DNA of 64,000 nucleotides from positions 496,001-560,000 of the forward strand of contig NZ_JAMQJY010000001.1 in assembly GCF_023703085.1 (NCBI RefSeq). The letters are read 5' to 3'. Position 1 is the first letter of the stretch, and each line of letters begins with the position of its first letter. The translations under genes and the position numbers were made by a program. The stretch is from Alkalicoccobacillus plakortidis (GTDB lineage Bacteria > Bacillota > Bacilli > Bacillales > Bacillaceae_D). The notes beneath the pieces were generated by a model. That model did no database searches. It saw only the letters and a program-made list of their open reading frames with translations, and was not told the origin of the DNA. Positions 2,026 through 56,569 of the stretch are shown here, one piece after another.

Positions 2026-3070
2026 TTAATCTAGGATTGTTACGCTAATTGTTTTACGACCGAATGCTATTGCATCATCGTGAGATTGCATGTATAGATC
2101 TACTTTGTTACCGTTAATGGCACCACCAGTATCTCCAGCAATAGCCTCTCCATAACCTTCAACATGTACACGTGAACCTAGTGGAATAACACTTGGATCA
2201 ACTGCGATCACCTTTTGGTTAGGGTTAGCATTTAAGTCAATTCCAGTCGCTGTTACACCTGAGCAACCAGGCACAGTTCGCTGTATAGGCAGTAGCCTCT
2301 ACTTGGATAGTTTGACCGCTCTCTTGTTGACTGCTTGATTCTGTTTCTTCAGCTTGAACAGACGCCTCTTCAGTGGCAGGTTCTGTTTCTTCAGCTTGAG
2401 CAGACGCCTCTTCAGTGGCTGGTTCTGTTTCTTCAACAGGTTCAGCTGACTCTGCTTGTTCAGATTGTTGCGGCTGTTCCTGCTCAGTAGTGGTTTCCTG
2501 AGCTTTAGGTTCAGCTGTTACTTCTTCTGCTTTTGTTTCTGTTTTTTGCTGAATTACTTTCTCGGCTGTTGTGTAATATAGCTCTTTGAAAGTTTTTGGT
2601 CCAGCAATTCCATCAACAGAAAGCTTATGATCCGCTTGGAAAGAACTTACTGCTTTCTTCGTAAGTGGGCCGAAGATTCCATCTTGGCCACCATCTAGGA
2701 AACCAAGATCGATTAATTGAGATTGTAATTCTTCAACAATGTCACCTTCATCGCCTTCTGACAATACATGAAGAGCGCCTACTGTTTGAGCTCCTGCAAT
2801 CCCATCTGATTCTAGATCATATTTCTTTTGGAATGATTTTACTGCTTCTGAAGTTTCGATTGTATATGTGCCATTTATCTCATCGTTAAAGAATCCTTTT
2901 TCGGATAACAACTCTTGTAGTTGTTCAACATGTTTCCCTTCATCACCCTTATGTAGGGTATCAAAACTGCTTGCCTCTGAGATGCTTGGTGAAGCAAATA
3001 AGACAAATCCAGCCGTTGCAACTGGTAACGTTACATAACGAAGTGTTTTAAATGGAATTTTAGCATTCAT
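2026..3070 (-). pseudogene. Secreted peptidoglycan-binding 3D-domain protein (YocH-like), frameshifted
   Basis: Secreted cell-wall protein, probably a lytic or wall-remodelling enzyme of the YocH type. The start chosen is the ATG at 3070, 9 nt after AAAGGAGG; the longer ORF from 3106 has no such site. Order: signal peptide (ends near SISEA), two PG_binding_1 domains (about 35-170), an acidic low-complexity linker with a 13-residue unit QAEETEPATEEAS in tandem, and a C-terminal 3D domain ending in the Asp-rich core GEAIAGDTGG. One extra base near 2269 shifts the frame inside AYTANCAGCSG; removing it rejoins the 3D domain exactly. The wall role is inferred from the domains. Confidence 0.85.
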
Positions 3071-3426
3071 GGTGCCAACCTCCTTTGATTTCAACCACTG
3101 CTCCATACAGTACCAGTGACTGTAGAATCTATCAATCCTTTAGCGGCCTACTTAAACGAATTGAAATCTTAATGTAACAAAAGTCAAAGGAGGGACATCT
3201 TCATTCCATATATTAGGTTTTTAAAGTGACTTAGTTTTGAGATTTACACATAATTAGCGTCATTTTTTCCGTGTTTTACTGATTAATGGTTAAACTAACC
3301 AAAAGTATCTCCCATTTTGACCTAAAATCCACGAATTCAACAGAATTCGTCTTGATTTACCCCATTTTATTTGTCACACCTGTAACCATGTTGTTATAAA
3401 CTCACCATTCGACAATTCGTATTTGC
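3071..3426. other. Intergenic region with perfect palindrome at 3331-3350
   Basis: This holds the promoter region of the 3D-domain gene and the 3' side of the cyclotransferase gene. The one clear structure is the perfect inverted repeat ACGAATTC-AACA-GAATTCGT at 3331-3350. It could be a weak terminator for the upstream minus-strand gene (followed by ATTTT) or an operator. I looked for a WalR box (two TGTWAH half sites spaced by 5) and did not find a convincing one. Confidence 0.4.
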
Positions 3427-3804
3427 TTATCTCTCTCTCCAATTACCTGACTCAATAAGTGATAAATGTGCGGTTTTTATAGAGGGAAAGACATACACCA
3501 ATGCCTGACTTACCCCGTTCTTTCGATATATGTTTAATAAAAGTCGATTGTAATCATTCTTCAACTCATCCCCGATATAGCCTTCAAGTGCGTCAATTTT
3601 ATGTAGAACCTCATCAGTTACTTCATATAATTCTCCCCATACTGTATGACTTGTCTCATCTACACACACGGTTGGATAACCTAAGCTTGTATCGTATAGT
3701 TCTCCATAAATAAAACAATTTGAGTCAATACATTCAGCTCCTGCTAATAAATGGCTGTTTGATTCATTCTTTAATAGGGTTCCATACACAAAAACCATTG
3801 GCAC
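3427..3804 (-). CDS. Gamma-glutamylcyclotransferase-like (AIG2/GGCT) protein
   Basis: Small cytoplasmic protein of the gamma-glutamylcyclotransferase/AIG2 fold, 125 residues. The family hallmark VFVYGTLL is at the N-terminus, and GELYDTSLGYPTV and ALEGY follow as expected. Such enzymes release 5-oxoproline from gamma-glutamyl dipeptides or amines; the substrate here is unknown. The start is GTG at 3804 after GAAGGA; the ATG two codons later (3798) is equally possible. It is divergent from the methyltransferase gene. Confidence 0.85.
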   Translation of the reverse strand: MPMVFVYGTLLKNESNSHLLAGAECIDSNCFIYGELYDTSLGYPTVCVDETSHTVWGELYEVTDEVLHKIDALEGYIGDELKNDYNRLLLNIYRKNGVSQALVYVFPSIKTAHLSLIESGNWRER

Positions 3805-3890
3805 ATGTCATCATCCTTCAATTATCTTGTTTTTATTACGGTATCAGATTTTCTGAATATTGCATAGGCTGTATAAAAAAGAGGTGGGTT

Positions 3891-54096: not shown

Positions 54097-55687
54097 ATGA
54101 TTACTGTTCATAATGTAGGATTACAGTATGGAGACCGCAAATTGTTTGATGAAGTAAATATTAAATTTACACCAGGAAACTGCTACGGCTTAATTGGAGC
54201 TAATGGAGCTTGGGAAATCAACGTTCTTGAAGATTTTATCTGGAGAAATAGAACCACAATCTGGTGACGTCAGCTTAAAACCAGGACAACGTCTAGCTGT
54301 ATTAAAGCAGAACCACTTTGAATACGAAGAGGAAGAAGTTTTAAACACAGTAATGATGGGTCACCCACGCCTGTACCAAGTGATGCAAGAGAAAAATGCG
54401 ATCTACATGAAAGAGGAATTCTCAGATGAGGATGGCATGAAGGCTGCTGAACTTGAAGGGGAATTTGCTGAGCTAAACGGTTGGGAAGCTGAATCAGAGG
54501 CTGCTGTTCTTTTAAAGGGATTAGGTATTGATGATTCCATTCATTATAAAAAACTAGCTGATCTAACTGGTTCTGAGCGTGTGAAAGTATTACTGGCACA
54601 AGCACTATTCGGTGAACCTGATGTGCTACTTCTAGATGAGCCTACCAACCATTTGGATCTTCAAGCCATTCAGTGGTTAGAGGACTTCTTAATTAATTTT
54701 GAGAATACGGTAGTGGTTGTATCCCATGACCGTCATTTCTTAAACAATGTCTGTACGCACATTGCCGATCTTGATTTCAGTAAGATCCAAGTGTACGTAG
54801 GTAACTATGACTTCTGGTATGAGTCTAGTCAGCTTGCTCTAAAAATGGCACAAGACAATAACAAGAAAAAAGAAGAAAAGATCAAGGAATTACAAGGCTT
54901 CGTTGCTCGATTTAGTGCAAACGCCTCTAAATCAAAGCAAGCAACTTCAAGAAAAAAATTGCTTGATAAGATCGAATTAGATGATATTAAACCATCTTCA
55001 CGTAAATATCCGTATGTTCACTTTACACCAGAACGTGAAGTCGGTAACGATTTACTACGTGTAGAGAATCTTTCTAAAACCATTGATGGCGTAAAAGTAT
55101 TAAACAACGTCAGCTTCACGATGAATAAAGATGATAAGATTGCCCTTGTTGGTACACATGAAACAGCAAAAACAACGTTATTTAAGATTCTTACTGGCGA
55201 GATGGAACCGGATTCTGGTAGTTACAAATGGGGAATTACGACATCTCAGTCATATTTCCCGAAAGATAACTCTAGCTTCTTTGAAGGCAATCAAGATTCT
55301 ATCCTTGATTGGTTACGACAGTACTCTCCTCAGGATGATAGCGACACATTCCTTCGCGGTTTCCTTGGACGTATGTTGTTCTCTGGTGAGGAAGTTCACA
55401 AAAAAGCGAATGTGCTTTCAGGTGGAGAGAAAGTTCGTTGTATGCTTTCTAAAATGATGCTAAGTGGTGCCAATGTTCTCTTACTTGATGAACCAACCAA
55501 CCACTTGGACCTTGAGTCGATTACAGCTGTCAATAATGGCTTAATTAACTATAAAGGATCAATGATTTTTGCATCACATGACCAACAGTTCATCCGTACC
55601 ATTTCTAACCGTATTATTGAATTTACAGATGACGGTTTGATCGATAAAGAGCTTTCTTATGAAGAGTACCTTAAAGATAAAGCTTAA
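54097..55687 (+). pseudogene. ABC-F ATPase, YkpA/YbiT-like (frameshifted near the start)
   Basis: Two fused ABC domains without a membrane part, about 529 residues; ABC-F proteins act on the ribosome. ATG at 54097 after TTGGAGG. First Walker A is broken by one extra T at 54210-54211: GGAGCTTGGGAAATC should be GGAGCTGGGAAATC, giving [11 protein letters not shown]. Both Walker B motifs are LLLDEPTNHLDL. The first signature is LTGSERVKVLL and the second LSGGEKVRCML. The second Walker A is GTHETAKTTLF, unusual at the Gly before Lys. Between the domains is the linker with KKKEEKIKELQ. Rather like YkpA of B. subtilis. Confidence 0.88.
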
Positions 55688-55696
55688 TCTATTTAT

Positions 55697-55740
55697 GAGA
55701 ACAGCAGACCCTATTGAATAGGATCTGCTGTTCTTTTTTA
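55697..55740. terminator. Terminator between the ABC-F gene and the sugar ABC operon
   Basis: GAACAGCAGA/TCTGCTGTTC plus inner CCTATT/AATAGG gives a stem of about 16 bp, followed by T6. Confidence 0.88.
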
Positions 55741-56569
55741 TTCCTTCACTGCCCCTTCTGCTACTCCCGCCATAAACTGACGACTGAAGATAATAAAGAG
55801 AATGATAAGTGGTATTGTGGCCATCAAGGTTCCAGCCATGATCATCGCATAATCTGTGTCGTATACTCCATTTAGCTGAGCAAGCATGACCTGTAACGTA
55901 TACTTCTCAGGGCTATTAATAGCAACTAATGGCCAGAGGTAATCGTTCCAGACATTGATGAAAGTAAAAATACCTAAAAAGGTCAGTGCCGGTCTTAATG
56001 TTGGCAGGGCAACATTCCAATACAACCGGAACATACCGCACCCGTCTAATCGACCAGCATCCAATAAGTCATTAGGAACAGATTCCTGACAGAATTGCCT
56101 GATCCAGAAGATCCCAAAAGCACTTGCCAAGCTAGGAATAATTAGCGCCTTATACGAATCCACCCAAGCCGAACTCGGCAATAAGTAAAAAGGATGGAAC
56201 AAAACTCATTTGCGCTGGGATCATCATTGTTAAGAGTAAAGCTATAAACAACAAGTTTTTTCCCGGGAATTCAAACTTAGCAAATGTAAATCCTGCTAAT
56301 GAACAAAAGAACAATACACCAACAGAGGTTACAACGGATACAAAAACAGTGTTACCTAAAGCTTGGAAAAAATTTATGGTCGTTAATACATCTGTTATAT
56401 TGGTCCAAAGCTCTGCTCCAAAGGTAAGTCGAGGTGGGAATTTGAGAATTTCACTCGTTGTGTTAGTTGCCATAACTATCAACCAATAAAATGGAAAGAT
56501 AGAGATAAACACACCTACTAAAAGAATGAAGTGAACAAATAGCTTCATATACCATCTGTCATTTGTCAT
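55738..56569 (-). pseudogene. Carbohydrate ABC transporter permease, MalG type (frameshifted)
   Basis: Second membrane subunit of the sugar importer, about 277 residues joined, six transmembrane segments. EAA loop: DAGRLDGCGMFRLYWNVALP. One extra base at 56166-56167 (CCAAGC for CCAGC) interrupts AEFGWVDSYKALIIP. Last gene of the binding protein-permease-permease operon; no ATPase is encoded, so a shared MsmX-type ATPase probably serves it, as for many Bacillus sugar importers. Confidence 0.9.

Follow-up and report, generated by a model that had tools for sequence, protein, structure and literature searches.

Frame breaks at CCAGC/GCTGG in the Alkalicoccobacillus plakortidis assembly are most likely consensus errors at a motif probably modified in the strain

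Consensus errors of nanopore assemblies can gather at short motifs. In Klebsiella pneumoniae, ∼70% of the nanopore consensus errors obtained with the then-current default basecallers fell in the Dcm motifs CCAGG/CCTGG, in the part of the report used here (Wick et al., 2019, PMC6591954). Strain-specific and partial motif errors were reported later (PMC12392509, PMC11610573, and PMC12506013, each likewise drawn on in part), and in one of these reports the errors were purine/pyrimidine ambiguities, i.e., substitutions, at RACG/CGTY (PMC11610573). The present analysis concerns one-base frame breaks at the pentamer CCAGC (GCTGG on the opposite strand) in the genome assembly of Alkalicoccobacillus plakortidis, around a window of 64,000 nucleotides (contig 1, positions 496001–560000). 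As at the Dcm sites, the errors are concentrated on a five-base word containing CCAG, the basecaller being presumably untrained on the mark; the difference is that the word here is CCAGC and the changes are mostly one-base insertions, the platform and methylome of A. plakortidis being presumptive. The effect is strain-dependent and partial, with some motif copies failing, like the methylation-induced errors of R10 data; those were substitutions in the portion of the report considered (PMC11610573), whereas insertions and deletions are seen here, with a method that detects frame breaks only. The features of methylation-linked consensus error found in A. plakortidis are the concentration on one short word, the absence from related assemblies, and a partial and flank-dependent effect. 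The pattern belongs to a known class of artefact, and no report of such errors at CCAGC was found in the literature searched.

With a probability of roughly 93%, the frame breaks are consensus errors that do not exist in the chromosome, CCAGC/GCTGG being most likely modified in this strain. In the proposed mechanism, a base modification on CCAGC (GCTGG on the opposite strand) would cause the signal over the pentamer to be misread, usually by the gain of a base, which gives CCAAGC or in some cases CCAGGC, and sometimes by the loss of one. The extra-base reading would win the consensus in about one-eighth of the coding copies, and the misreading would depend on the neighboring bases, as expected of a signal spanning several bases. 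The mark may be set by a system of two C5 methyltransferases encoded at C1:2.59 Mb (C1, contig 1). Nanopore chemistry is inferred because of the precedent of Dcm-site and strain-specific motif errors. An earlier note, made from the window alone, had likewise attributed the breaks to an erroneous consensus at a modified base, together with a methyltransferase recognizing the motif; this is supported by the concentration at the motif, the absence in relatives, the partial effect and its flank dependence, and the breaks in indispensable genes, the modification, platform, and enzyme being its presumptive parts.

The genome under study comprises 4.37 Mb in nine contigs and was compared with four genomes of the same genus (G001–G004), the nearest of which, G002, showed 86% identity in gnd DNA. 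One protein of the window shares 94% identity with Alkalicoccobacillus murimartini and 90% with both A. gibsonii and A. porphyridii, which places the genome among alkaliphilic bacteria of the Bacillaceae type. The main region consisted of 400 kb around the window, set against 400 kb stretches of three relatives. Plain nucleotide alignments placed CCAGC at the top of the insertion ranking (8 insertions at 59 sites), and the rates were noisy; therefore, a frame-aware method was used, in which open-frame proteins of the relatives were aligned to the A. plakortidis DNA with frame jumps allowed and breaks with well-conserved flanks were retained. Alignments below 60% identity, best tblastn matches below 55%, and breaks with flanks of fewer than 12 aligned codons or less than 60% identical were excluded before counting. 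A break was counted as lying at CCAAGC when the word occurred within ∼8 bases, and a cluster of breaks was regarded as well supported when seen with at least two relatives.

With three relatives as references, the main region yielded 90 clusters of breaks over 290,570 bases of coding sequence, and 51 of the 90 were at CCAAGC, a word present at 0.84% of random coding positions (null 0.0084 per position; binomial p ∼5e-81). Sixty-one of the 90 clusters were backed by at least two relatives. Every insertion among these 61 (46/46) was at CCAAGC (41), at CCAGGC (4), or beside an intact GCTGG (1), and 50/61 clusters were at or beside CCAAGC, CCAGGC, or CCAGC, against 3.1% expected. Among the 15 deletions, four were located at most 9 bases from an intact CCAGC, three in homopolymers, and eight elsewhere, four of these eight having GCTGG in at least two relatives. 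The clustering of indels at GCTGG/CCAGC beyond chance, which had been claimed from the window, is confirmed by these counts. The same test on three relatives, each against the other two and hence with two references per genome, gave 7, 11, and 9 clusters, with 0/27 at CCAAGC (Fisher p 1e-8); the break density was 310 per Mb of coding sequence in A. plakortidis vs. 27–36 in the relatives. A second stretch, comprising another 400 kb of the genome with one relative as reference, contained 42 breaks (226 per Mb) over 186,236 bases of coding sequence, 30/42 of which were at CCAAGC, so that beyond the main region too the indels are not spread evenly over other motifs. In a reverse check with A. plakortidis as reference, 1/10 breaks in the relative was flagged at the motif, this being a weaker control because the reference is itself broken.

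CCAGC occurred 1044 times per Mb against 1365–1441 in three relatives, the strongest depletion among 512 five-mers, and CCAAGC occurred 692 times per Mb against 475–535, rank 2 in enrichment among six-mers. Over the whole genome, CCAAGC was counted 3178 times in 4.37 Mb (728 per Mb), as compared to 2029–2375 times in the ∼3.9–4.4 Mb of the four relatives (507–544 per Mb, with their genome sizes taken as rounded figures). The reversed word, used as a control, was level (252 vs. 233–284 per Mb in relatives), and the surplus of CCAAGC over the whole genome was roughly 850. The comparison of the two words with relatives, proposed earlier as a check, thus found CCAAGC in surplus over the whole genome and CCAGC depleted in the five-mer count.

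Among the coding copies of CCAGC in the two regions, 81 were broken by an insertion and 574 were intact (81/655, 12.4%), in agreement with the earlier observation that the effect is partial and that intact copies coexist with broken ones. Breaking depended most on the base before (p 4.5e-5) and the base after the word (9e-6), and also on position −3 (p 0.0013). Copies preceded by C or T and followed by G or C broke at the highest rate; none of the 41 copies with G before and A after was broken, while 6/12 copies flanked by C on both sides were. This dependence is accounted for by a signal that spans several bases. Longer strict motifs, e.g., YCCAGCS or CCCAGC, were rejected, as breaks were found in 15/16 flank classes; no flank rule is absolute, and therefore the recognition site need not extend beyond the pentamer. 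Four CCAGGC events were present in 400 kb. At three of them the relatives or the coding sense favor GCTGG, and at the fourth (concatenated position 188589) GCTGG is present in the nearest relative and GCCGG in the two others. As three of the four cases are better derived from GCTGG, GCCGG as a second motif would seem unnecessary.

Within the window, CCAAGC was found 38 times vs. 21.4 expected (0/100 shuffles reached 38), and CCAGC, with 60 copies, was about level with the shuffle expectation of 63.4; statistically, the comparison over 400 kb carries more weight. The individual sites, in window coordinates, with the strand and the relatives or profiles that bear on each, are given below.

2269, minus strand: CCAGGC frame break in a peptidoglycan-binding-domain gene (2237–3106); 3/3 relatives
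5671..5676, plus strand: CCAAGC frame break in gnd (6-phosphogluconate dehydrogenase, start 4756); 3/3 relatives
6799..6800, minus strand: one-base loss, GCTGG in relatives; 3/3 relatives
15490..15495, plus strand: CCAAGC frame break in an aldo/keto reductase gene (14712–15524); 3/3 relatives; Pfam match begins at profile position 45
22762..22770, plus strand: one-base loss in an A run, off the motif; 3/3 relatives
34326, minus strand: break in an MFS transporter gene, pieces 33626–34273 and 34291–34908; TIGR00900 profile 176–361 and 1–156
36469..36474, minus strand: CCAAGC frame break (GCTTGG on the plus strand) in open reading frame (ORF) 35386–36549; 3/3 relatives
48467, minus strand: break in a catalase HPII gene, pieces 46780–48435 and 48432–48824; NF008422 profile 179–744 and 53–167
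53451..53456, plus strand: CCAAGC frame break in a glucose/sorbosone dehydrogenase gene; 3/3 relatives; both pieces match PF07995
53872..53877, plus strand: second CCAAGC break, near the start of the glucose/sorbosone dehydrogenase gene; three relatives, flank identity below threshold
54208..54213, minus strand: CCAAGC frame break (GCTTGG on the plus strand) in an ABC-F family ATPase gene (54194–55687); 3/3 relatives
56164..56169, plus strand: CCAAGC frame break in an ABC transporter permease gene, ORFs 55738–56202 and 56150–56569; 2/2 covering relatives

Fourteen breaks had been claimed in the window by the earlier note. Nine of them (2269, 5673, 6800, 15492, 22770, which was placed at 22762, 36471, 53453, 54210, and 56166) were recovered with two or more relatives, the others being partial, profile-based, or unconfirmed. 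Six of the seven sites read as an extra T in GCTGG are among the nine (5673, 15492, 36471, 53453, 54210, and 56166), and the seventh, 53874, was seen with three relatives with its flanks below the threshold. In gnd, a stretch of 1406 bases has an aligned counterpart of 1405 bases in each of G001, G002, and G003, and the NCBIfam match ends at profile position 311/476; the best NCBIfam match of the ABC-F gene begins at profile position 39, and the downstream piece of the permease matches PF00528. The sites at 34326 and 48467, proposed as a lost G in GCTGG, proved to be broken frames whose pieces fit consecutive parts of one model, each piece scoring under the whole-protein cut-off; the two genes had no counterpart in the fetched relatives, and the breaks may have arisen at the motif. 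The break at 2269 is present where it was read as GCCGG plus T, but two of the three relatives read GCTGG; likewise, the break at 6800, assigned to a base run, was found, but all three relatives have GCTGG there, one of them twice. Two claims were not confirmed: at 18670 the lone matching relative showed 51% identity, below the cut-off, and its alignment ends near the proposed point, and 49190 is positioned outside the BrxC frame, which looks whole. A further break at 50515 was supported by a single relative and is counted among the 90 clusters, outside the 61. The stretch 17998–18720 encodes a restriction endonuclease domain of the Mrr type and, at the C terminus, weakly matches a zinc ribbon.

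The genome harbors four C5-methyltransferase matches, two of them adjacent at C1:2.593–2.596 Mb (388 and 414 amino acids, PF00145, motifs PPCQ and ENV in both). In the defence island to which they belong (C1:2587875–2597107), presumably flanked by an rlmH-like gene, an HNH nuclease gene is located directly upstream of the pair; downstream, after a gap of ∼1.35 kb, there are a gene for 232 amino acids, an AAA gene (PDC-M26A match), and a DUF2357/PDDEXK_7 gene. The sole NCBIfam match of the HNH nuclease is a phosphorothioate-dependent nuclease model, below cut-off, and comparison of this protein and the first methyltransferase with solved structures revealed general relatives only. No C5-methyltransferase match was found in G002, G003, and G004, and G001 has a single one, 41% identical to the first island enzyme. 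The search for a matching methyltransferase that had been proposed earlier thus provided two adjacent C5 candidates, whose putative specificity for CCAGC is suggested by the error pattern. The methyltransferase and HNH genes (L212:8245–12107) contain 0 CCAGC and 5 CCAAGC in 3.9 kb, with ∼4 CCAGC expected at the regional rate, and all three frames are open. The third C5 methyltransferase (C1:15432–19376) and the fourth (C1:1646216–1649731), a frame of 224 amino acids that covers the first half of the family only and may be broken, both have surroundings that look phage-like. In G003, two N6 methyltransferase frames (486 and 500 amino acids) are present near the end of the chromosome record (C1:3844396–3847597), possibly at the position that the C5 island occupies in A. 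plakortidis.

Thirteen short loci elsewhere, reaching ∼1.5 kb on each side and not to genes further away, matched the first enzyme. The second enzyme adjoins nearly whole in nine of them, is truncated at the border of the locus in one, and was not found in 3/13; in one (L264), a match to the gene for 232 amino acids begins a short distance past the second methyltransferase and extends as far as the locus does. No HNH match was obtained in these 13 short loci. The enzyme and an HNH homologue occur on equally long contigs of two named species, and a Lactococcus plasmid has the methyltransferase pair beside a PLD-domain nuclease. The HNH protein as a fixed partner nuclease is thus unsupported, given its absence from the short loci and the PLD-domain nuclease on the plasmid.

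In the part of its description used here, the LlaJI cassette of Lactococcus comprises a pair of m5C methyltransferases that serve a single asymmetric site of five bases, GACGC, with AAA and PD-D/ExK proteins encoded nearby as in the A. plakortidis island (PMC1459862). The two differ in that LlaJI recognizes GACGC, and in that the island has the HNH gene directly upstream and the gap before the downstream genes. Owing to this precedent, the pair would suit the asymmetric CCAGC/GCTGG, with one enzyme per strand, and it is plausible that the two-enzyme system at C1:2.59 Mb marks CCAGC. The fuller proposal, that a restriction-modification system with two C5 methyltransferases and an HNH or McrBC-like partner marks CCAGC/GCTGG, the assembly being an unintended readout of the methylome, is tentative, with chances somewhat below even.

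A variant of the consensus error, in which the mark is not C5-methylcytosine but N6-methyladenine, N4-methylcytosine, or a phosphorothioate, is rather unlikely, though it deserves weight. ModD1, a type III methyltransferase of Neisseria meningitidis, methylates the A of the identical word (CC-m6A-GC) according to the portions of the two reports consulted (PMC13248682, PMC13248616), and was the only published CCAGC enzyme found in the literature searched, in which a cytosine-methylation specificity for CCAGC/GCTGG was not found. The below-cut-off match of the HNH neighbor to a phosphorothioate-dependent nuclease also points to this variant. ModD1, however, belongs to another enzyme class, and N6_N4_Mtase (PF01555) had 0 matches in A. 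plakortidis, with 12/12 candidates scored; MethyltransfD12 (PF02086) gave no match either, in a search that did not extend to the Dnd or Ssp families or to those of type IIG (e.g., MmeI). The only N6_Mtase (PF02384) match, of 363 amino acids, has counterparts of 331–339 amino acids in all four relatives, and the Eco57I (PF07669) matches were below cut-off.

Whether the marked base is cytosine or another, reading the breaks as consensus errors has to be weighed against real changes in the chromosome. Genes broken include those for 30S ribosomal protein S2 (rpsB), PolC, the replicative helicase (two breaks), FtsY, RNase III, transketolase, aconitase, and FliP; the SSB gene, broken off the motif, was excluded from this list of indispensable genes. 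A second-copy check was made for rpsB, which has one locus in the whole genome, split over two frames, and is whole in four relatives. If rpsB, polC, ftsY, and the replicative helicase gene were truly broken, the cell would presumably not be viable. Context-specific mutation, with CCAGC as a real insertion hotspot due, e.g., to faulty repair of a modified base, was the alternative named in the earlier note; it would account for the strict motif specificity, but with about one-eighth of the coding CCAGC copies broken, single-copy rpsB and other indispensable genes among them, it is very unlikely, and the broken genes themselves are most likely intact in the chromosome. Tolerated frame changes, by ribosome or RNA polymerase slippage at CCAAGC as a recoding system, would allow indispensable genes to carry the insert; for this, sites by the hundred would have had to arise after divergence from the relatives, whose own breaks spare CCAAGC, and the changes are not uniform, with CCAAGC, CCAGGC, and losses all present, so that we give it almost no credence. 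Hardly more credible is an ordinary low-quality assembly with errors over many contexts and the motif as a reader's impression: 11/61 well-supported clusters are in A runs or without the motif, though at least two relatives read GCTGG at 4/11, and the 50/61, 51/90, 30/42, and 46/46 counts contradict it. Several observations nevertheless weigh against the consensus-error reading. The 11 well-supported breaks have no adjacent CCAGC word in the assembly. The share of CCAAGC is higher in noncoding (8/13) than in coding sequence (229/582; Fisher p 0.15), the direction expected of mutation with selection, and two counts agree, namely 51/98 outside vs. 498/1285 inside the genome's own ORFs and 12/18 in unaligned ORF-less stretches, both confounded because broken frames shrink ORFs. 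Long homopolymer runs are not scarcer than in relatives, so one classic older-nanopore signature is missing and the platform cannot be named from sequence; A-run deletions head the deletion table (17/484 AAAAA sites). Finally, the ratio of CCAAGC to its reversed word was 2.89 in A. plakortidis, 1.89–2.31 in same-genus relatives, and 1.18–2.17 in 15 other genomes, 11 of them with a related methyltransferase (52–76% identical), none of which showed a CCAAGC surplus; comparators of the same genus existed for just three of the 11, with level ratios. This lack is uninformative if those genomes were sequenced otherwise or the specificity differs, and it neither supports nor excludes the enzyme assignment.

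Extrapolation from the two regions, with 310 and 226 breaks per coding Mb, suggests perhaps ∼1000 false indels in the assembly, and pseudogene counts, completeness, and gene-loss claims taken from it are therefore unsafe; its completeness is 96.9% vs. 99% in the four same-genus genomes. For a strain such as this one, of which no methylome was found in this study, setting a plain assembly beside those of relatives can indicate a modified motif. If a CCAGC-marking system is truly present, its motif and flank effects have been obtained from a deposited assembly without raw signal. At concatenated position 82043 (C1:478044), a conserved gene is four bases shorter than in all three relatives, at a site without the CCAGC motif.

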